A stretch of DNA of 49,928 bases from Oscillospiraceae bacterium (GCA_024685535.1 JAIKVS010000011.1:1-49928), one strand, 5' to 3'; positions 1-11,572 are shown, numbered from the stretch's first letter. Translations and numbers: made by a program. The notes: a model not told the origin generated them from the letters alone.

Positions 1-312
1 AAGCTGTAATTTATGATATCACAAGATATATTAAAAATATCACAGGAAATGTACTTAATCAAACTATTAACACGGTACTTAAAATATTTGTTTATTTGCT
101 ACAAAAAGAAAAACTAAACTTGTTTATAATAACGAATTGAAAAGTGCGGGGCCCAAAAAGATTGACTTTAAACTGCCAAATTGAGATAATTAATCGAAAT
201 ATGACCATAGGAAATTTGTGCCTCTTTTTGCGCTTTTTCCTGTCTGATTTTAGACAGCTAAAAGATATAATTTATTTTGATCGCAAAGCGATCGAAGAAA
301 GGAAAACACAGA

Positions 313-1977
313 ATGAAAAAGTACCTCGCACTCCTCATCGCGCTGACGATGGTGTTTGCACTCTGCGCCTGTGGCCAGCAGCAGGCTGCACCGGCAGCCA
401 CTACCGGCACAGAATCTGCAGAACCTGCAGGCCAGACCACAGTTGAATTCGGTCAGGATGCCATGGCTGCAAATGAGAACGCCACCGTCACCGAGAAGCC
501 GGACCACATCCAGCCGGGCACCGAGTTCTCCTACTGGACGAACTACGACGTTCCCCTCTACTGCCCTTGGATCGACAACCGTGCTTCTGCTTTCCTCTGG
601 CAGGTCTATGATAACCTCGTTCTCCGCTACCACAGCGACATCACAGACCTTCGCCCCTGCCTTGCAGAGTCTTGGGATGTATCTGACGACTACACGCTCT
701 ATACTTTCCATATCCGTCAGGATGCCTACTTCTCCGACGGTGAGCAGGTCACTGCACATGCATTCGTCAACACCTGGGACAAAGCCACAAGCGAGTATCA
801 GGCCCGTTACTTCAACGTAGTTGATTACTACAAAGCCCTTGATGACTTTACCCTCGAGATCCAGCTGAAGGCTCCTAATGCTGCCTTCATGAACGACCTT
901 GTCTGCCAGCCCCACTGCGGCCCTGTCTCTCCGAAGGCTCTTGATGAGTTTGGTGCAGAGGACAACCGCTCCGCAGTCGGCTGCGGCCCCTATGTAGTTG
1001 AGAGCTACACCCCAGGCGAAGGCTTTGTCCTCAAGGCCAACACCAACTACTACAATGAGCTCAAGCAGCCCTCCATCGAGACAGTAAACATGGTACTCAT
1101 CCCCGAAGAGAACACCGCTCTTCTCGCACTCCAGAACAACGAGCTCGACTGCATGAACTTCGTCAGCATCCAGACCTACGAAGTTCTTGATGCAGCAGGC
1201 TGGAACATCCTCCGCATCAAAGACCGCTGCAACCCGTTCTGGGTCAACCCGTCTGTCAACCCGATATTCGAGAATGACGCAGTCCGTGCCGCTCTCTGCC
1301 ACATGATTGACTGGAATGAAGTTAACGAGCTGGCATACAACGGACTCTACGGAGTTCCAAACAGCCTCTATGACGGCCAGGGCGGATACCCCTATGGCGA
1401 TGACTACAGCTACGATCCCGAACTCGGTCTCCAGATCCTTGCTGATGCCGGCCTCAAGCCCGAAGATGTTAAGTTCACCATGCTTGCAGACCCAGACTTC
1501 ACAACCATTGAGACCGTTCTCGTTCAGATGTTCAATGACCTCGGACTAGTTAACGTCGGTTTCGAGACTCTCGACGGTGCTACCTGCTACGGAATGCTCA
1601 AGGGCGGCACCTATGAAGTCTTCCCCTGCCACAACGGTTACTCCGAAGAGTCCTGCCTCACTCCTTACACCATGGGCCTTGCCGGATCTGATATCCCGGG
1701 CACCGGCGCACAGCCTGTGCTCTTCATCAAGTGGATGGATGAAGAAGCCTTCAAGCAGGTTGAGGAATACTACCAGGCAGCTGTTGTTGCGCCTACCTAC
1801 GAGGAGTATGTTGAGAACGTTTCCAACATCACCCGTCTTGCCCAGGAGCAGCATGCTGCATTTGGCGGACTCTGCGTCACCCGTTTCTATGCCGTCAACA
1901 ATGAGATCAGCGGCGTATATCCCAGCCAGATCGGCGGTTATGTAGAGTTCTGCTACATGTACTCCAACGTCGGCTGA
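313..1977 (+). CDS. Oligopeptide ABC transporter substrate-binding lipoprotein (SBP_bac_5 family)
   Basis: Start moved to ATG 313 (MKKYLALLIALTMVFALCACGQQ: lipoprotein signal with lipobox LCAC). SBP_5-like body; followed by dppBCDF-type genes. Confidence 0.93.
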   Translation: MKKYLALLIALTMVFALCACGQQQAAPAATTGTESAEPAGQTTVEFGQDAMAANENATVTEKPDHIQPGTEFSYWTNYDVPLYCPWIDNRASAFLWQVYDNLVLRYHSDITDLRPCLAESWDVSDDYTLYTFHIRQDAYFSDGEQVTAHAFVNTWDKATSEYQARYFNVVDYYKALDDFTLEIQLKAPNAAFMNDLVCQPHCGPVSPKALDEFGAEDNRSAVGCGPYVVESYTPGEGFVLKANTNYYNELKQPSIETVNMVLIPEENTALLALQNNELDCMNFVSIQTYEVLDAAGWNILRIKDRCNPFWVNPSVNPIFENDAVRAALCHMIDWNEVNELAYNGLYGVPNSLYDGQGGYPYGDDYSYDPELGLQILADAGLKPEDVKFTMLADPDFTTIETVLVQMFNDLGLVNVGFETLDGATCYGMLKGGTYEVFPCHNGYSEESCLTPYTMGLAGSDIPGTGAQPVLFIKWMDEEAFKQVEEYYQAAVVAPTYEEYVENVSNITRLAQEQHAAFGGLCVTRFYAVNNEISGVYPSQIGGYVEFCYMYSNVG

Positions 1978-2044
1978 TAATAGAGCTTAAGTTACTTACA
2001 GCATAAACAGACAATAGCATATACATATAAAGCACATACTTTTT

Positions 2045-2072
2045 GCGGAGCGGCGCTTAACCGCCGCTCCGC
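2045..2072 (+). terminator. GC-rich hairpin between SBP and permease (attenuator/terminator or mRNA stabiliser)
   Basis: GCGGAGCGGCG-CTTAAC-CGCCGCTCCGC, 11-bp perfect stem, followed by a pyrimidine-rich tract. Confidence 0.7.
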
Positions 2073-2129
2073 TTCTCTCTTAAGAAAAAAGACCGGAAAA
2101 ACCGGGAATCAACCCGGCGGAGGTAAGAA

Positions 2130-3113
2130 ATGCTAAGATATACGATCAAGCGCATATTACTTATGCCTGTCCTGCTGCTGATAGTAGCACTTTTGATATA
2201 TCTTCTGCTGAACCTGAACGGTGCCGATCCGCTCCAGAATATGCTCCCTCAGGAATATACTCAGGAGCAGTATGATGCGCTGGCAGCCAAATACGGCCTC
2301 GACAAACCGATTTTGGTTCAGTATTTCAACTGGATCAAAGGGATATTGCACGGAGATCTGGGTATCTCATATAAAACGAGAGGCCCGGTGGGCGATGACG
2401 TGTTTTACCGCATCCCGATAAGCCTTAAAGTCGCCCTTATAACAACGGCAATAATGCTTTTGATTGGCTTACCAGTCGGAGTCATGTGTGCTGTGAAACA
2501 GTACACCGCTTTCGACGATATAACGAACGTAGTTTCTAAGTTCCTCGGAGCAGTGCCCAGTTTCTGGCTAGGCCTTATGCTCATGATCTGGTTCTCAGTC
2601 GGCCTTGGCTGGTTCCCGACCTATGGCATCAAGGAAGGTGCGAGAAGCTATGTACTCCCGATATTTACTCTTCTTCTGCCATTCCTTGCGCAGTTTATCC
2701 GTCAGGTACGCTCGGCAATGCTCGACTGCATCCGTCAGGATTACGTTCGCACTGCTCGAAGCAAAGGCGCCAGCGAGAGAAGGGTTATCTTCCATGAAGC
2801 GCTTAAGAACGCTATGCTTCCTATCATCACATTCGCAGGCGGTTGCTTTGCATCAATGATAGGCGGCGCCGTCACTGTTGAAAAGCTCTTTGCTATCCCG
2901 GGCATAGGTTACAAAGTCGTTGAAGCAATCAATACTCGCGACATACCTACGATGCTTGCCTGCGTCATGTTCCTTTCCATCCTGACGATAGTTGTACAGC
3001 TGCTGATCGACCTTTCATATGCGTTTATCGATCCGCGAGTACGCAGCACGTTCGTCAGTGTAAAGAAAAAGAAAAAAGCTCCCGCTAAAGCTGAGGAGGT
3101 GAAGGCTGCATGA
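2130..3113 (+). CDS. Oligopeptide/dipeptide ABC transporter permease (DppB/OppB type)
   Basis: MLRYTIKRILLMPVLLLIVALLIYLLL...; BPD_transp_1 EAA-like motif 'DYVRTARSKGASERRVIFHEALKNAMLPII'. Confidence 0.95.
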   Translation: MLRYTIKRILLMPVLLLIVALLIYLLLNLNGADPLQNMLPQEYTQEQYDALAAKYGLDKPILVQYFNWIKGILHGDLGISYKTRGPVGDDVFYRIPISLKVALITTAIMLLIGLPVGVMCAVKQYTAFDDITNVVSKFLGAVPSFWLGLMLMIWFSVGLGWFPTYGIKEGARSYVLPIFTLLLPFLAQFIRQVRSAMLDCIRQDYVRTARSKGASERRVIFHEALKNAMLPIITFAGGCFASMIGGAVTVEKLFAIPGIGYKVVEAINTRDIPTMLACVMFLSILTIVVQLLIDLSYAFIDPRVRSTFVSVKKKKKAPAKAEEVKAA

Positions 3114-4009
3114 GTAAAACAAAAGCACCGCGTCTGAAGAAGAATTCTCAGGCTGCTGAAGTTTGGCAGAGCCTGATCCACAGACCTGCAGCTGTTATCG
3201 CCATGATAGGCTGCGCGATTATACTGTTTTTGGCCATCTTTGCAGATGTCATCGTTCCATATGACGTGGCTATAAGACAGTCCGGAAAGATCAAGCTTCT
3301 TGCTCCTATGACCACTGATATCTATGGTAAACTTCATCTTCTCGGTACAGACAACCTAGGCCGTGACATAACAGCCCGTGTTATCCACGGTGCACGTACC
3401 GCTATGGAGATCGGCTTGCTCTCGTCGATAATTTCACTGGTCATTTCCACGATCCTTGCCTGCCTCTGTGCAATGCTTGGCGGCTGGGTAGATAACATAA
3501 TAATGAGAATAGTTGACGTTATAAGCTGCGTTCCCGGCATGGTCGTTGCTCTGGCTATATGTGCAGCCCTTGGTAACGGTATACCGCAGTTGCTGGTCGC
3601 ACTGACGATATCATCGTTGCCGATGCACATCAAGATGATACGTTCAGTCGCGCTTACAGTAGCAAAGAAGGACTTCGTTGAGTCTGCAGTTGCTCTGGGT
3701 GCCAATCCCTGGTACATAATGGTCAAACATCTTGTGCCGAACCTTGCGTCAGTTATTCTTATTAACGGAACAGCACAGGTCTCTATAAACATTATGCAGG
3801 GTGCAACGCTCGGCTTCATCGGACTCGGTGTCAAGGCACCTACTCCTGAATGGGGCACGATGCTTGCCAACGGCCTTTCCTACACCATGAAAAACCAGTA
3901 CATGGTCTATATCCCCGGCATAGTGCTCTGTCTTGCGGCATTGAGCATCAACACACTGGGCGACTGCCTGCGTGACGCTCTTGACCCGCAGCTCAAGGGC
4001 AAGGCATAA
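3110..4009 (+). CDS. Oligopeptide/dipeptide ABC transporter permease (DppC/OppC type)
   Basis: ATGA overlap with the upstream gene; 'DFVESAVALGANPWYIMVKHLVPNLASVILI' permease motif. Confidence 0.95.
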   Translation: MSKTKAPRLKKNSQAAEVWQSLIHRPAAVIAMIGCAIILFLAIFADVIVPYDVAIRQSGKIKLLAPMTTDIYGKLHLLGTDNLGRDITARVIHGARTAMEIGLLSSIISLVISTILACLCAMLGGWVDNIIMRIVDVISCVPGMVVALAICAALGNGIPQLLVALTISSLPMHIKMIRSVALTVAKKDFVESAVALGANPWYIMVKHLVPNLASVILINGTAQVSINIMQGATLGFIGLGVKAPTPEWGTMLANGLSYTMKNQYMVYIPGIVLCLAALSINTLGDCLRDALDPQLKGKA

Positions 4010-4021
4010 GGAGGTACTGAC

Positions 4022-5005
4022 ATGAGTGAAAAGCTTTTAGAAATAAAAGACCTGTCGGTCCGCTATACTACTGACGGCGTCATTTCCAGAGCCGTCAACC
4101 ACCTGAACCTTGATCTTGACAAGGGCGAAGTTCTTGGACTCGTTGGAGAAACCGGCGCCGGTAAGACCACCACAGCACTTACTATCCTTAGACTACTCCC
4201 GAAGTATACCTCCGAAGTCGATGGTGAAGTTTTCTTTGAGGGAAAGGATATCCTCAAGCTCTCCGAAAAAGAGGTACGTGATATCCGCGGACAGAAGATC
4301 TCGATGATCTTCCAGGATCCTATGACTTCTCTGAATCCGGTCTATACGGTAGGCGAGCAGATTGCTGATGTTATCCGCTTCCATAATGACAACATGAGCA
4401 AGGCAGCTGTTGAAGCCCGTGTCGATGAGATGCTCAAGCTGGTCGGCATTCCTCCTCAGAGAAAGACTGAGTTCCCGCACCAGTTCTCCGGCGGCATGAA
4501 GCAGCGTGTCATGATAGCCATAGCTCTTGCCTGCAACCCCGAGCTCCTGATAGCTGACGAGCCCACTACGGCTCTCGACGTTACAATTCAGGCTCAGGTT
4601 ATAAAGATGATGAGGAACCTCCAGAAAGAACTCAATACCGCTGTTATACTCATCACTCATGACCTCGGCATTGTTGCCAACTTCTGCGACAAGGTCGCCA
4701 TTATGTACGGTGGTGAGATCGTTGAGAGTGGCACTCTTGAAGAAGTATTCGACAAGAGCACTATTCACCATCCCTATACGATCGGATTGTTCGGCTCATT
4801 GCCGAACATCACCGAGCGCACCAGCAGACTTACACCAATAATGGGACTTACTCCGCACCCATCGGAGCTTCCTGAAGGCTGCAAATTCCATCCCCGTTGC
4901 CCGCAATGCATGGAAGTCTGCAAAACCGGAGACAACCCGCCGAAGATCGATAACGGCGGAACTCATGTGATCCAGTGCCATCTGTATGCTGAAAAGGAGG
5001 CATGA
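4022..5005 (+). CDS. Oligopeptide ABC transporter ATP-binding protein (DppD/OppD type)
   Basis: Walker [10 protein letters not shown], signature FSGGMKQRV, Walker [14 protein letters not shown]-terminal oligo_HPY ([10 protein letters not shown]). Confidence 0.95.
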
Positions 5006-5970
5006 AAATGAGTGAAGAAAGAAAAGTCCTTCTTGAGGTAGATCATCTTAAAAAGTATTTCGATACTCCGAGAGGAATGCTCCATGCCGTTGATGATGTC
5101 ACTTTCCAAATCGAGGAAGGAAAGACACTCGGAGTCGTTGGTGAATCCGGATGCGGTAAATCCACGTTGGGCAGGACTATACTCAGACTGTTACCCTCGA
5201 CAGATGGCAAGATCATCTTTAATGGTGAGGATATCACCCATGTCGACAGCAGCAGGATGCTTGCACTCCGCCGTGATATGCAGATAATCTTCCAGGATCC
5301 GTTTTCCTCCCTCGACCCGAAGATGACGGTCTCTCAGATTATTGAGGAGCCTTTGAAGATCCACAAGATCTATAAGAACAAGGCTGAGCGCATGGAAAGA
5401 GTCAAGGAACTTATGAGCATAGTCGGTCTGGACGAGAGATATGTCATGACCTACCCGCATGAGCTCGACGGAGGCCGCCGCCAGAGGATAGGCGTTGCAC
5501 GCGCCCTTGCCCTGAACCCGAAGTTCATCATATGCGACGAGCCTGTCTCTGCACTCGACGTTTCCATTCAGGCCCAGATACTGAACCTCATGATGGACCT
5601 GAAGGATAGCATGGGCCTTACCTATATCTTCATCACGCATGATCTTTCCGTAGTTAAACACATAAGTGATGATATCCTGGTGCTTTACCTGGGTAAGATG
5701 GTAGAGATGACAGATTCCGATACCCTCTTCGACAAACCGCTCCATCCTTATACGAAGGCTCTGCTCACCGCCATCCCGGTGCCTGATGCATCCTATAAAG
5801 GCAAGGAAGCTGAGGTCATGAAGGGTGAGGTTACATCTCCTATCGAACCGCCTCCCGGATGCCGTTTTGCAGCCCGTTGCCCGCTGGCAAGCGAGAGATG
5901 TTTAAAGGAATCACCCGAATTCAAAGAGGTAGAACCGAATCATTTTGTTGCCTGCCACCTATACGATTAA
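5002..5970 (+). CDS. Oligopeptide ABC transporter ATP-binding protein (DppF/OppF type)
   Basis: GESGCGKST, ICDEPVSALD, CRFAARCPLASERC; overlaps the previous CDS. Signature region reads LDGGRRQRIG. Confidence 0.95.
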   Translation: MKMSEERKVLLEVDHLKKYFDTPRGMLHAVDDVTFQIEEGKTLGVVGESGCGKSTLGRTILRLLPSTDGKIIFNGEDITHVDSSRMLALRRDMQIIFQDPFSSLDPKMTVSQIIEEPLKIHKIYKNKAERMERVKELMSIVGLDERYVMTYPHELDGGRRQRIGVARALALNPKFIICDEPVSALDVSIQAQILNLMMDLKDSMGLTYIFITHDLSVVKHISDDILVLYLGKMVEMTDSDTLFDKPLHPYTKALLTAIPVPDASYKGKEAEVMKGEVTSPIEPPPGCRFAARCPLASERCLKESPEFKEVEPNHFVACHLYD

Positions 5971-5978
5971 TAACCCAT

Positions 5979-6030
5979 ATCAGTATTAGAAAGAACCCGT
6001 CTGGAAAGACGGGTTCTTTCTAATACTGAT
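5979..6030. terminator. Bidirectional terminator-like perfect hairpin ending the oligopeptide transporter operon
   Basis: ATCAGTATTAGAAAGAACCCGTC-TGGAAA-GACGGGTTCTTTCTAATACTGAT: perfect 23-bp stem with a 6-nt loop. Confidence 0.8.
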
Positions 6031-6094
6031 TCTGCTTGCCAATATATGAGGAGATTGTTTATAATCAGTTATCAACAAAGAGGGAAGATGTACC

Positions 6095-6568
6095 ATGGCC
6101 AAAGTAGAAAAGACAAATGTGATGCGGATTCTGGACAGCAAGAAGGTTTTATACGTAATCCATTACTATGGTAATACTGATGCTGTGAGTGGAACGGACG
6201 TTGCTGCGGTGCTTGGCGAAGCACCTGAAAAGGTTTTTAAAACACTTGTAACAGTGGGCAGATCAAAGCAGCATTATGTATTTATTATACCCGTAGAGAA
6301 AGAACTTGATCTTAAGAAAGCGGCCTCTGCTGCAGGAGAGAAAAGCATCGAAATGATAAAGTCAAAGGAACTTCTCCCACTCACAGGATATGTTCACGGA
6401 GGCTGTTCGCCAATCGGAATGAAGAAACAGTTCCCCACTTTTATGGATGAGAGTGCGCAGCTCCGTGATACTGTGTGCATCAGTGCTGGAAAGATCGGTT
6501 ATCAGGTGGAACTTGCACCTGATATGCTGTCAGTTATGATCCCGCTGAGCTTCAGCGATCTTACTTGA
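6095..6568 (+). CDS. ybaK: Cys-tRNA(Pro)/Cys-tRNA deacylase, YbaK/EbsC family
   Basis: YbaK-type sequence: 'GEAPEKVFKTLVTVG...KELLPLTGYVHGGCSPIGMKKQFPTFMDE'. Confidence 0.9.
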   Translation: MAKVEKTNVMRILDSKKVLYVIHYYGNTDAVSGTDVAAVLGEAPEKVFKTLVTVGRSKQHYVFIIPVEKELDLKKAASAAGEKSIEMIKSKELLPLTGYVHGGCSPIGMKKQFPTFMDESAQLRDTVCISAGKIGYQVELAPDMLSVMIPLSFSDLT

Positions 6569-6586
6569 GAATGGAGCCGGTTCGAT

Positions 6587-7069
6587 ATGTTAAGTTTTGA
6601 ACACAGGGATGTGACCTGCTGTTTCACTGGTCACAGGCCGCAGAAGCTCCACCAGCCTGAGTCTGAGATTCGGGAAGGACTGGAAAAGGCTGTGCTGCGG
6701 GCATATGATGACGGCTTCAGATACTTCATCACTGGAATGGCAATGGGGGTAGATATATGGGCAGGCGAAGCGGTATTAAAGCTTAAGGGTGAACATCCTG
6801 AGATTCAGCTTATAGCTGCAGTACCTTATCCGGGGCAGGAAAAGAATTTTCCTTATGAATGGAAGCTCAGCTATGCGGAGCTTCTTGAAAAGTGCGATCA
6901 GGCCGAAATCTTATCCGATAGATATCAGAAAGGTGCATTCCATCTGAGGGACCGCTGGATGGTGAATCATAGCAGCATGATCATCGCAGTATATAACGGG
7001 GAACCGGGGGGCACTGCCATGACTATATCATATGCGAAAAAGGAAAGCCTCGAGCTGAGAGGTATATAG
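6587..7069 (+). CDS. SLOG/DUF1273 (YpsA-like) family protein
   Basis: CCFTGHRPQKL N-terminal motif, 'YFITGMAMGVDIWAGEAVLKLK', 'GEPGGTAMTISYAKK'. Confidence 0.85.
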   Translation: MLSFEHRDVTCCFTGHRPQKLHQPESEIREGLEKAVLRAYDDGFRYFITGMAMGVDIWAGEAVLKLKGEHPEIQLIAAVPYPGQEKNFPYEWKLSYAELLEKCDQAEILSDRYQKGAFHLRDRWMVNHSSMIIAVYNGEPGGTAMTISYAKKESLELRGI

Positions 7070-7205
7070 AGAAGGGCCGGGCAAACAGTACGGCTTGAGT
7101 TTAAATAAATTACGTAAACTAAAATATGTAAACGAATGGGGCGGGCATGTATCTGAAGAATGCCCGCAAATGCTCTGAACAGGCGGCTTTTAGGGTACAT
7201 ATTTC

Positions 7206-7234
7206 TTGACAATACCGCGGCTATTATTTAAAAT
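7206..7234 (+). promoter_or_regulatory. Sigma70-type promoter for the pta-like/thiolase/DUF35-ACP unit
   Basis: TTGACA - 17 nt - TAAAAT. Confidence 0.65.
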
Positions 7235-7296
7235 ATATTGTACAAATTAATAATGTTGGAAAAACCCTGAAAACAATAAAGGAGAATACACGGTCT

Positions 7297-8313
7297 ATGG
7301 ATATCATGGAAAAAATCTATGCCCAGGCTGCAGCGGATCCCCAGAGAATAGCGTTTCCCGAAGCCACCGATCAGAAGATCCTTCAGGCGGCCAGAGAATG
7401 CTGCGACAAGGGACTTATCATCCCCGTGCTTGTTGGAGATGTCACGCAGATACGCTCTGCTGCGTCTGAATTCGGCATAGGACTTGATGGAATGGAGTTT
7501 TTTGACACTGCAGATTCTGCAGCTGTAGAGTCTCTTGTTTCCGAATATGCCCAGCATAATGACAGCCTCTCCGAGAAAGCCCTTGCCAAGAGAGCCGCGC
7601 GCGACAGCATGTATCCGGCGCTTTATCTTCTTGAGGTGGGCAAGGTCGATGCGATGTTTGCCGGCATGACGCATACCACAGGTGATGTCATTCAGGCAGG
7701 TATGCTCATAATCGGCCTTGAAGACGGCATCATTACTCCGTCCTCTGTCGGTATTGCAAAGATCCCAGGCTTCAATGGCTCAGAAGGAGATCTCCTCTGC
7801 TTCGGCGATTCCGCAGTCTGCGTGAACCCGAGCCCGGAGGAGCTTGCATCCATAGCTCTTGCAGCATGCGACACGGTAAGAGACCTTCTTGACTGGGATC
7901 CCAGATGCGCCATGCTTTCCTACTCAACTGACGGCTCAGCTGAAAGCCCGTTGGTGGACAAGGTCCGTCAGGCTATTGCAATTGCTCACGAGGCCAGACC
8001 CGAGTATAAGATCGACGGTGAGTTCCAGCTCGATGCCGCTATAGATCCGCGCGTTGCCGCAAAGAAGGTGAAGAGGGAAAGCGAAGTTGCCGGCAAGGCC
8101 AATATCGTTATCTGGCCGGACCTCAATGTCGGCAATATCGGTGTTAAGCTTGTGCAGTTCTTCTCCCATGCTGATGCCTACGGTCCTCTGCTCCAGGGCT
8201 TCCGCAAGATAGTCTGTGATTGCTCCAGAAGCGCTCCTGTCTCAGAGCTCATGGGCAATATCGTAATGGCGGCAGTCCGTGCACAGAGCAAGAAAAAGCT
8301 GAATAATTTTTGA
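7297..8313 (+). CDS. Phosphate acetyl/acyltransferase (Pta/EutD-like)
   Basis: PTA family motifs: 'RIAFPEATDQKILQAA', 'FAGMTHTTGDVIQAGM', 'VDGEFQLDAA'-like (IDGEFQLDAAIDPRVAAKK), 'LNVGNIGVKLVQFFSHADAYGPLLQGF'. Confidence 0.88.
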   Translation: MDIMEKIYAQAAADPQRIAFPEATDQKILQAARECCDKGLIIPVLVGDVTQIRSAASEFGIGLDGMEFFDTADSAAVESLVSEYAQHNDSLSEKALAKRAARDSMYPALYLLEVGKVDAMFAGMTHTTGDVIQAGMLIIGLEDGIITPSSVGIAKIPGFNGSEGDLLCFGDSAVCVNPSPEELASIALAACDTVRDLLDWDPRCAMLSYSTDGSAESPLVDKVRQAIAIAHEARPEYKIDGEFQLDAAIDPRVAAKKVKRESEVAGKANIVIWPDLNVGNIGVKLVQFFSHADAYGPLLQGFRKIVCDCSRSAPVSELMGNIVMAAVRAQSKKKLNNF

Positions 8314-8326
8314 TGGAGGATAATAA

Positions 8327-9619
8327 ATGAACCCGTTCAATCAGACCAACCCCAAGGCGTACGGGCGTTCCGTATCTATCATCGGTGTCGGTTGCACCCC
8401 TTTCATGGAGGAGCTTAAGAATCCTGAAACAGAAGGACTGACCGACGGTGAACTTTTCGGCTATGCAGCTCTCAAGGCAATGGAAGATGCCGGAGTCTCC
8501 CCTAAGGACGTCCAGTTCTATTTCCATGGTAGTGCGAGCCCTCTGAACGGAAGCAACTACCTCACCCCGAACATGCAGGTCGCAGAGTGGTTCGGCATGA
8601 GAGGCAAAGCGTCCCTCCACCATTCCGAAGCGTGCTGCACAGGTTATCTCGCAGTTGATATTGCTGCCCAGGCCATTGCTTCCGGGAAATACGACATAGT
8701 TCTCACCGGCGGCATCGACTTTGGCGATGCACTTGCCGAGCAGGGAAAACCCGCCTATATCAGGCACAGTTTCCCCTTTGAGGAGTTTCAGCGCTCCACA
8801 GAGTGGCTGACTGATAACGCCTATACCAGACATCTGCTTGCAAATGTCGGCCACGACTACGGCGCAGTATGGTACCAGGAGAAAGCAGGACTTACGGATG
8901 ACGAAATAGACAAAGCCCTCTGCAAGCTTGCCATTATAGCCAGGGAAAACTCCAAAAACAATCCCCTTGCCATCGACCACAAAACCTATCAGGAAGAAGC
9001 CAAGGAAGCCGGCTACGACGATGTTATGGAATATATGCAGTCCGAGCTCAACCCAAAAATCGGTCAGGCTCAGCGCATAACCGGTCTTGAGCACAAGTGC
9101 GATGGTGCTACTTGCCTCGTCCTCTGCGCCACTGATCTCGCCGAGAAGTTTACCAAGAACAAACCAATCGAGATCCTTGGAGCCGGCAACTCCACTCTTG
9201 AGGCAAGTAACCCGATCCTCGAGATCGATGCCACAAGAGAGGCCTGCCGCCAGGTCTATAATATCACCGGACTTACCGGCGATGATATTGATCTCATGTA
9301 CATTAATGACTTTATCATCACCTCTCAGCTCATAGCGTCAGAACTCGCCGGTTATATACCCGAGAACCAGGCATGGAAATATGTTATGGACGGCAGAACG
9401 AAGTTCGACGGCGACAAGCCCATCAACCCCAACGGCGGCCGCACGGCCTTCGGTCATGCGCATGCTGCTTCCGGTTTGGCAGACTTTTATGATGCAGTTC
9501 TCCAAATAAGGGGCAAGGCTGCGGATCACCAGGTAAAGAAACAGCCCAAGACTGTCTTCCTGCGTGGATTCGGCGGTGGCCAGAATGTATGCTCCGTGAT
9601 CATCCGCGAGAAAGACTGA
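8327..9619 (+). CDS. Thiolase-family protein (acetyl-CoA acetyltransferase / SCPx-PhlC-like)
   Basis: Nucleophile region 'HHSEACCTGYLAVDIAAQAIASGKYDIVLTGG', His motif 'NPNGGRTAFGHAHAASGLADFYDAVLQIRG', C-terminal 'GFGGGQNVCSVII'. 13 nt after the pta-like gene. Confidence 0.88.
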   Translation: MNPFNQTNPKAYGRSVSIIGVGCTPFMEELKNPETEGLTDGELFGYAALKAMEDAGVSPKDVQFYFHGSASPLNGSNYLTPNMQVAEWFGMRGKASLHHSEACCTGYLAVDIAAQAIASGKYDIVLTGGIDFGDALAEQGKPAYIRHSFPFEEFQRSTEWLTDNAYTRHLLANVGHDYGAVWYQEKAGLTDDEIDKALCKLAIIARENSKNNPLAIDHKTYQEEAKEAGYDDVMEYMQSELNPKIGQAQRITGLEHKCDGATCLVLCATDLAEKFTKNKPIEILGAGNSTLEASNPILEIDATREACRQVYNITGLTGDDIDLMYINDFIITSQLIASELAGYIPENQAWKYVMDGRTKFDGDKPINPNGGRTAFGHAHAASGLADFYDAVLQIRGKAADHQVKKQPKTVFLRGFGGGQNVCSVIIREKD

Positions 9620-9637
9620 GAAAGGAGAATAACTGAT

Positions 9638-10630
9638 ATGGCTATCAAACTTGAAAGACTTGTCAAGACATATTACGAAACTCTCGAAGAGGGTAAGGTT
9701 CTCGGACGTAAATGCCCTGTCTGCGGCAATGTTGAATGGCCCCCAGTCTATGCTTGCAACGCATGCGGTGCAATGGAGACGGAGTGGTGTGAAATGAGTG
9801 GCAAGGGCGAGATTATCCAGCTCATCATCCCCACTGCCATGAGCCTCAAGCCTGCCTATAAGCATCTGGAGCCCTATGCATATGCATGGGTCAAGTGCGA
9901 AGAAGGACCGGAGAGAAATGTTATGGTACGCGGCATCACACGTCAGAATGCAGCATATGTAAGAGCCCATCTTCCGTATCCCGTTCACATGGATATAGTC
10001 CAAATGAATGGCTTCAAGACCTGCGTCTTTGCCATTGATCCCATCGATGCTAACGGCAATCCCGTTAAAGCAGCCGCTGAGGCCTCTGCTGCGGCTGCTG
10101 TTGTCAGCAAAACGCTCGAAGCTCTTAAGAAACTCTTTGCCAAGACCTATGGTGTCGACGAGGCAACGCTCAGCGGTGATACCCTGCTGGACGATATGAA
10201 GGGCCCCTCAGTCAAGTTCGTCGGCCTTGTTGCAAGACTTGAGGATGAGTTCGATGCTATCCTCTCAGTTACCGAGGCATCCGCTGCAAAGACCATCGGA
10301 CGGCTTGCCAAACTGATAGATGGCGAAGATCCGGACGCCGCCGATGTGGCTCCCGTTGCTGAAGCGGCTAAGGGAGCGGTTGCCGGATCTGGAGAAGAGA
10401 CTGAGACCTTCAAAGAACTCAGAAAAATGTTTGCGAAGACCTATAAGATAGACGAAGCTTCGATTACCCCGGATACGCTGCTCGATTCCATGGAGGGCCC
10501 GTCAGTCCTGTTCGTCGGCCTTGTCGCCAGACTCGAGGATGAATTCGATGCTGTCATATCCGTGACAGAGGCTTCCGCGGCAAAGACCGTGGGCGGGCTC
10601 GCAAAGCTCGTTGACGAGGAGAGAGAATAA
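9638..10630 (+). CDS. DUF35 Zn-ribbon/OB-fold protein fused to two tandem ACP-like domains
   Basis: N-terminal Zn ribbon CPVC...CNAC plus OB-like segment (SGKGEIIQLIIP...YAYAWVKCEEG). C-terminal repeats 'ALKKLFAKTYGVDEATLSGDTLLDDMKGPSVKFVGLVARLEDEFDAILSVTEASAAKTIGRLAKLID' and 'ELRKMFAKTYKIDEASITPDTLLDSMEGPSVLFVGLVARLEDEFDAVISVTEASAAKTVGGLAKLVD' align by eye with ACP helices I-IV. Confidence 0.85.
   Translation: MAIKLERLVKTYYETLEEGKVLGRKCPVCGNVEWPPVYACNACGAMETEWCEMSGKGEIIQLIIPTAMSLKPAYKHLEPYAYAWVKCEEGPERNVMVRGITRQNAAYVRAHLPYPVHMDIVQMNGFKTCVFAIDPIDANGNPVKAAAEASAAAAVVSKTLEALKKLFAKTYGVDEATLSGDTLLDDMKGPSVKFVGLVARLEDEFDAILSVTEASAAKTIGRLAKLIDGEDPDAADVAPVAEAAKGAVAGSGEETETFKELRKMFAKTYKIDEASITPDTLLDSMEGPSVLFVGLVARLEDEFDAVISVTEASAAKTVGGLAKLVDEERE
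10112..10615 (+). repeat. Tandem intragenic ACP-like domain repeat (approx. 10112-10321 and 10406-10615)
   Basis: Two highly similar ~70-aa modules separated by an Ala/acidic linker (DPDAADVAPVAEAAKGAVAGSGEETE). Confidence 0.85.
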
Positions 10631-10663
10631 TCTGCCGGTATTCTCCTTAGCATACTGTTTTAA

Positions 10664-10690
10664 CAGAGGAGCGCCGCCGGCGCTCCTCTG
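10664..10690 (+). terminator. Intrinsic terminator after the DUF35-ACP gene
   Basis: CAGAGGAGCGCC-GCC-GGCGCTCCTCTG then AATTTTCGTTTGTT. Confidence 0.8.
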
Positions 10691-10750: not shown

Positions 10751-11572
10751 TTGGATCTGTTTTCACGCAAAAAACAGAATACAGAATCTGAGGATGAGTT
10801 GAGTATACCCGATTCTGACTTGTATCTTCGACCAAAGAAAGAGAAAAAACCGGCTAAGGTCTATGGATTGCTCTTTATAATCCTCTGTGCTGTTGCGGCC
10901 GTTTTTCTTCTTGTGTCAGACAGTGAGTTTGAGGAAAAAGCAGCTGAGCCATCGGCTCTGACTTCGACAGCAGGAGAGCGGCAGCCTGAGGTGGTCGAAG
11001 AGCAGCAAGAAATATACGAAGGACCAGAGGAACTGCCATCAGAAACGGTGACTGTGATACCTGATTATAACCAGCAGCCCGGACAGGCGACCGTTGAATA
11101 CCGACGATATCAGATCGGGTCTATCATATATGAGATTCGGAACGATGCGGCGTTTGTTATTGGTACTGTAGGAAATACAAAGAATGTAAAATATCTTACC
11201 ATAGAGTCATCAGTAAGATATATGTATCCCGTGGTGGAGATATGCGAGGGAGCTTTCAGAGACTGCTCGAGGCTTCTGAGAGTCCATATTCCTGACAGCG
11301 TCATAATCATAAGGGAAAGTGCGTTTGAAAACTGCAAAAAACTCGAGCTTGTGAGTATGTCAGAAGGACTTATCACGATAGAAGGCCGGGTGTTTGCCGG
11401 ATGTGCTGCCCTTAAATCCCTGAAGTTTCCGTCAACTGTGAAGGAACTCCGGGCTGATGTTTTCGAAGGAGCGGAAAAGCTTTCTAAATTGAGGATACCG
11501 GAAAGCTGCAGGATTCCTGAAGGTGACGATCCTTTTGGCCTGGGTGAAAAACTGAAGATAGAGGTTTACTGA
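10751..11572 (+). CDS. Membrane-anchored leucine-rich repeat (LRR_5/BspA-like) protein
   Basis: TTG start; single TM (VYGLLFIILCAVAAVFLLVS); repeats 'ICEGAFRDCSRLLRVHIPDSVIIIRESAFENCKKLELVSMSEGLITIEGRVFAGCAALKSLKFPSTV'. Confidence 0.85.
   Translation: MDLFSRKKQNTESEDELSIPDSDLYLRPKKEKKPAKVYGLLFIILCAVAAVFLLVSDSEFEEKAAEPSALTSTAGERQPEVVEEQQEIYEGPEELPSETVTVIPDYNQQPGQATVEYRRYQIGSIIYEIRNDAAFVIGTVGNTKNVKYLTIESSVRYMYPVVEICEGAFRDCSRLLRVHIPDSVIIIRESAFENCKKLELVSMSEGLITIEGRVFAGCAALKSLKFPSTVKELRADVFEGAEKLSKLRIPESCRIPEGDDPFGLGEKLKIEVY

Follow-up and report, generated by a model that had tools for sequence, protein, structure and literature searches.

Why should a bacterium place an acyl phosphotransferase, a thiolase and a scaffold protein with its own acyl carrier domains behind one promoter? 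This question is raised by a three-gene operon at positions 7206-10690 of the window, i.e., the whole 49,928-nucleotide stretch of an Oscillospiraceae bacterium (GCA_024685535.1 JAIKVS010000011.1:1-49928) analysed here. The operon encodes an enzyme of a dedicated phosphotransacetylase (Pta) clade, an SCP2-type thiolase, and a DUF35 protein extended by two acyl carrier protein (ACP) domains. We slightly favour the reading that the operon represents one form of a conserved catabolic module that captures acyl groups and yields ATP, in which ACP would replace coenzyme A (CoA) as the acyl acceptor and the reactions would run in the direction of breakdown. A fuller scheme, to which we give a little less than an even chance, is that gut anaerobes conserve energy in this way: a thiolase-DUF35 pair, or an ACP-fused S15 hydrolase, would cut acyl groups from compounds of plant origin and deliver them to ACP, and a Pta devoid of two arginines would convert them to acyl phosphate and hence to ATP.

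Composition and recurrence of the gene set

All parts of the operon lie on the plus strand. The first open reading frame (7297-8313, 338 aa) matches the Pfam family PTA_PTB at 1.2e-87, and the second (8327-9619, 430 aa) is a thiolase (Thiolase_C_1, 4e-23). The third (9638-10630, 330 aa) begins with a DUF35 part (9638-10048), comprising a CxxC..CxxC zinc ribbon and an OB-fold region (zf-ChsH2, 1e-5; OB_ChsH2_C, 1e-3, the latter under its curated cut-off), and continues with two carrier domains at 10103-10324 and 10394-10627, whose attachment residues are Ser191 (10208-10210) and Ser289 (10502-10504). Since the two PP-binding matches (3e-17) lie far over the curated cut-off, these are, as judged by sequence, true ACP domains and not just "ACP-like" ones; their matches in the PDB are free-standing ACPs. 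The reading frames are separated by 13 and 18 nucleotides, and each is preceded by a GGAG-type ribosome site. Upstream lies a sigma-70-type promoter (TTGACA-17-TAAAAT, 7206-7234), which is called by consensus match only, with 11 of 12 consensus positions matched and the top score of the region. Downstream, an intrinsic terminator-like stem-loop (10664-10690) has a GC-rich stem of 12 pairs followed by T-rich sequence. An Rfam search of the operon region gave no match, and single-chain structure predictions were of low confidence, with a mean pLDDT of 36 for the third protein and 35 for the thiolase.

In the thiolase family, the nucleophile Cys103 (codon 8633-8635, motif HSEACCTG) and His377 of the GHA motif (codon 9455-9457) are invariant. 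They align with Cys88 and His347, respectively, of PhlC, the thiolase-like subunit of the Pseudomonas acylase PhlABC. Conservation of the phenol-activating His56 of PhlC cannot be claimed, as the closest invariant histidine, His67, is three alignment positions off.

The window genome is metagenome-assembled (2.0 Mb, 81% complete, 4% contaminated). The same three-gene order, with the same genes downstream, recurs in a second metagenome-assembled genome (L043); L044 has the three genes as well, both assemblies being of ruminant-gut origin; because of this recurrence, the operon is not an assembly artefact. Thiolase relatives at E<=1e-60 were found in 7 of 301 genomes of the family and in 9 of 102 genomes of the genus. 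Outside the family, none was detected at that threshold in evenly drawn samples of the class (391) and the phylum (399). No relative was confirmed on viral contigs and none was found in phages, while the best match on plasmids is only about 32% identical. The gene set is thus rare and patchy among Oscillospiraceae genomes. The thiolase is identical between two species of another genus (L040 and L041), which suggests a recent transfer. The operons of these two species are nearly identical as a whole and include a [FeFe] hydrogenase, a fumarate-reductase-like flavoprotein and an acyl-ACP thioesterase.

We compared 19 thiolase loci. DUF35 adjoins the thiolase in every one of them, always with the zinc-ribbon cysteines; ACP is present at 17, and a Pta of the window clade, or Ptb in one case (L039), at 15. 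The distance matrices of thiolase and DUF35 are strongly correlated (r=0.98), and so are those of thiolase and Pta (r=0.83; Mantel p=2e-4 each). An earlier note on this DNA had described the promoter, the three genes with their spacing and the terminator, had read the third protein as a DUF35 scaffold bearing its own carrier arms, and had made conserved linkage of the three genes across genomes a condition of its proposal; all of this was borne out. Its view of the DUF35-ACP fusion holds in part. The fusion does recur, with tandem ACPs in the window, L043, L044, L040 and L041 and a single ACP in L079, and the tree places it in at least two lineages. It is not general, however, as ACP is mostly a separate small gene next to DUF35 (L034-L036, L070-L074, L077, L078), and in L037 it is fused to an S15-family hydrolase. 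By the earlier note's own yardstick the fusion is therefore a variant, and the conserved feature is the composition.

Two further thiolase loci deserve mention. The window genome itself holds a second thiolase-DUF35-ACP set without Pta (L034, 829-2857, G000:C57), whose thiolase is 53% identical to that of the operon; sets of this type are conserved in L077 and L078, and lie divergent from a sugar-isomerase-like gene. In L038 (2663-5007 and ACP frames, G106:C161) the set is broken, with thiolase, DUF35 and ACP fragmented by stops, either by decay or by poor assembly.

Although the window ACPs have GPS where DSL is usual, the serine is retained in both. Across 18 compared ACP domains from divergent loci the serine is invariant (18/18), while P, A, E, K or Q stands in the place of the usual Asp. 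In addition, one locus (L117) carries a holo-ACP synthase gene (9717-10136) between an ACP-S15 hydrolase fusion and a dedicated Pta, with an acyl kinase 3' of this Pta, and in L036 an Sfp-type phosphopantetheinyl transferase gene lies directly 5' of the thiolase. Because of these linked transferase genes, the ACPs of the module are probably activated.

A dedicated Pta clade lacking two arginines

The window Pta belongs to a separate clade. It scores 257.8 bits against the NCBIfam phosphate acetyltransferase equivalog, under the cut-off of 311.2, and the housekeeping Pta of the examined genomes are merely 31-35% identical to it; no housekeeping Pta was seen in two assemblies. Pta genes of the operon type, i.e., 41% or more identical to the window Pta, occur in 13 of 16 thiolase-positive genomes and in none of 12 controls (Fisher 1.5e-5), generally as an extra gene alongside the housekeeping one.

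In the Pta enzymes of Porphyromonas gingivalis and Methanosarcina thermophila, two arginines hold CoA while an Asp/Ser/Arg set is needed in catalysis; in the P. gingivalis enzyme it is Arg89 and Arg135 that touch acetyl-CoA (PMC6461089). We located these residues by alignment to the P. gingivalis chain 6iow, where the six residues all differ by a constant 4 from the published numbers, and P. gingivalis numbering is used for Pta. Arg89 and Arg135 are both absent from all 18 dedicated Pta, the window enzyme included, and both present in all 14 housekeeping Pta. On the other hand, the catalytic Asp309, Ser311 and Arg312 are kept in all Pta compared, including 18/18 of the dedicated ones. We read this pattern, which did not feature in the earlier note, as a possible switch of the thiol partner from CoA to ACP.

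Taken together, these features would fit a four-step path. The DUF35-held thiolase would attack a ketone of the diketone or acyl-arene type with Cys103 and cut the C-C bond. The ACP that is joined to DUF35, or encoded by a neighbouring gene, would then accept the acyl group from Cys103 on its phosphopantetheine arm. In the third step, an acyl phosphate would arise as the dedicated Pta exchanges the ACP thiol for phosphate. An acyl kinase, which lies beside Pta in sister operons and not in the window operon, would finally convert the acyl phosphate to ATP and free acid.

Direction, substrate and rival explanations

The direction of the pathway is suggested by the sister operons. A butyrate-kinase-type enzyme lies 3' of Pta in L035, L037, L039, L070-L074, L117, L118 and L120. 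After the kinase, sister operons carry a lactate/oxalate-family importer, an NADH-linked iron-sulfur/flavin chain and an FAD reductase, whose top, sub-threshold NCBIfam match is vinylphenol reductase; in L039 the Ptb and kinase genes are joined by a sigma-54 regulator. Breakdown with ATP gain is favoured because sets of Pta, kinase, importer and reductase are typical of it. In L117 (7215-14260, G259:C10), the ACP-ACP-S15 hydrolase fusion, holo-ACP synthase, dedicated Pta and acyl kinase are accompanied by an alpha/beta hydrolase and an FMN flavoprotein, so that the core recurs there with an enzyme of the esterase type in the thiolase's place. L120 (1-14999, G1120:C110) holds two S15 hydrolases, a dedicated Pta, a kinase, an MFS transporter, and glyoxalase-like, TIM-barrel and NuoG/FAD-reductase genes; the contig start truncates its first S15 hydrolase, so that an ACP there would be out of view. 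As a second acyl-cleaving enzyme, the S15 hydrolase, shares the ACP-Pta-kinase set in L037, L117 and probably L120, the gene content suggests that these three components may form a general capture core.

A possible source of substrates is suggested by C-glycoside-cleaving genes. The C-glycoside deglycosidase beta-subunit gene (CGDB, PF19906) and its TIM-barrel partner lie about 1-12 kb from the thiolase in L043/L077, L079 and L070/L085, and in L043/L077 they are flanked by the genome's two thiolase loci. Within the genus, CGDB is found in 9/9 thiolase-positive genomes versus 11/93 others (Fisher 7e-8, before allowing for relatedness). Enzymes of this type act on C-glycosides to free their aglycones, e.g., flavonoids and kermesic acid (PMC8563793; PMC11170127). 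The substrates may derive from (poly)phenols of plants or from the corresponding C-glycosides, and an acylphloroglucinol, or a cyclic diketone from ring reduction, would be chemically reasonable. The diacetylphloroglucinol (DAPG)/phloretin hydrolase family PF18089 was considered as a marker of acylphloroglucinol use and discarded, as it occurs in 5 of 7 positives outside the genus, 1 of 9 inside and 19 of 69 controls. Apart from these loci, one partial genome of 0.9 Mb (G059; contigs C1, C2, C9, C10, C19, C22) carries 14 CGDB genes, mostly on one contig.

The stretch ahead of the window operon differs from that of L043/L077. At 277-5970 the window has a complete dipeptide/oligopeptide-type ABC transporter operon, where the equivalent stretch of L043/L077 has sugar ABC transporter and C-glycoside deglycosidase genes. 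Immediately 3' of the terminator, a BspA-type leucine-rich-repeat protein (10751-11572) has a counterpart in L043.

Several observations weigh against the capture module. The case for it is built on gene sets, conservation, residues and statistics. In known Pta, the two arginines influence CoA affinity and are not essential (PMC6461089). E. coli EutD (1vmi) lacks Arg89 too, with Arg135 present, and since the dedicated Pta form one clade, the double loss is probably a single event. Net charge does not suggest a basic ACP-docking patch, the dedicated Pta being more acidic than the housekeeping ones. The Pta of L119, from the same clade and with neither arginine, sits in a CoA-type locus lacking ACP, and no ACP is present at the loci L039 and L042. 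The link to CGDB is not significant outside the genus (2/7 versus 4/73), and the genomes behind the CGDB statistic are related. Finally, no acyl kinase adjoins the window operon, a statement on the locus only, as the rest of the genome was not searched. As for L119 itself (3859-9386, G277:C130), the neighbours of its Pta gene are a 2-hydroxyacyl-CoA dehydratase and a CoA-transferase III, and the enzyme is possibly a CoA-using member of the clade.

Could the unit instead be biosynthetic, so that Pta charges the ACP arms from acyl phosphate and the thiolase condenses acyl units, as PhlABC does, to a short ketide or an acylated phenol? Both reactions are reversible, PhlABC-type complexes do form C-C bonds, ACP is typical of biosynthesis, and neither kinase nor transporter adjoins the genes in the window operon. 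Nevertheless, we consider this unlikely: the sister operons join Pta to acyl kinases, importers and reductases and adjoin C-glycoside-cleaving genes, none of the ketoreductase, dehydratase or tailoring genes that mark a biosynthetic cluster was seen, and the S15-hydrolase version (L117, L120) suits ester breakdown. The condensation role proposed in the earlier note is accordingly less likely than a catabolic one, given that importers, acyl kinases and C-glycoside-cleaving genes indicate breakdown with ATP gain. Its assumption that Pta acts on acyl-CoA also fares poorly, with both CoA-holding arginines lost. That same loss counts against an equally improbable reading, in which the thiolase and DUF35 are ordinarily CoA-dependent, Pta still uses CoA, and ACP is structural or regulatory. 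Such a reading would accommodate the L119 Pta and the two loci without ACP, and solved DUF35-thiolase relatives employ CoA or no carrier; the invariant serine of 18 carrier domains, the phosphopantetheinyl transferase genes at two loci and the presence of the ACP fusion in two or more lineages speak against it. We give very little credence to a retro-aldol or lyase reaction in place of thiolysis, such as that of Ltp2/Sal, which are aldolases of the thiolase fold and likewise have DUF35 partners. Although the fold and the partner are the same, and the relatives 9myr and 6ok1 are among the matches, the nucleophilic Cys and the GHA His are invariant in this family and the product would require neither ACP nor Pta.

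If the capture module is real, some gut bacteria would save the C-C or ester bond energy that known hydrolases, e.g., phloretin hydrolase, release unused, and a carrier protein would serve breakdown rather than synthesis. It would also define an ACP-specific branch of the phosphotransacetylases, give a reason for DUF35 scaffolds to gain ACP arms, and provide marker genes for plant C-glycoside degraders in ruminants and other animals.

Comparison with known systems

One of the closest known systems is the Friedel-Crafts acylase PhlABC, in which PhlC is thiolase-like, PhlB is a DUF35 protein and PhlA is KAS-III-like. It shares with our module the thiolase-fold subunit with Cys and GHA His and the DUF35 partner in the same operon, and it C-acylates phenols in a reversible reaction via acyl-Cys88 of PhlC (PMC6392133). 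It sets a precedent for the action of a thiolase-DUF35 pair on an acyl-arene. PhlABC, however, has neither ACP nor Pta and only distant sequence similarity to the window proteins; and a KAS-III subunit like PhlA, which PhlABC requires, is found neither in the window operon nor adjoining the sister operons. The archaeal complex of acetoacetyl-CoA thiolase, DUF35 and hydroxymethylglutaryl-CoA (HMG-CoA) synthase (6esq), the top PDB match of the window DUF35 part, likewise uses DUF35 as a scaffold that channels intermediates, but these are bound to CoA, the partner is HMG-CoA synthase, and ACP and Pta are lacking. The benzoylsuccinyl-CoA thiolase BbsAB (7pxp) belongs to an anaerobic pathway for aromatic compounds and likewise combines a catabolic thiolase and a DUF35-type subunit; it too differs in using CoA, without ACP or Pta.

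The component parts belong to known families. In line with the earlier note, no description of a system of this composition was found: neither DUF35 with ACP and thiolase, nor ACP with acyl phosphate and a phosphotransacetylase, is described in the literature that was searched, of which few subscription papers formed a part. An ACP-based module for substrate-level phosphorylation, if true, would amount to a system of a new kind. Citrate lyase and malonate decarboxylase are also catabolic and hold acetyl on an ACP, with other enzymes and a special prosthetic group, and to our knowledge they have no Pta/kinase step on ACP. In Pta-AckA and Ptb-Buk, acyl phosphate and a kinase lead to ATP as proposed here; the known versions begin at acyl-CoA, whereas in our case the CoA-holding arginines are lost and ACP is linked. 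The step proposed for the dedicated Pta, from acyl-ACP to acyl phosphate, is carried out by the acyl-ACP:phosphate acyltransferase PlsX, which belongs to a family other than PTA_PTB and has its role in lipid synthesis.

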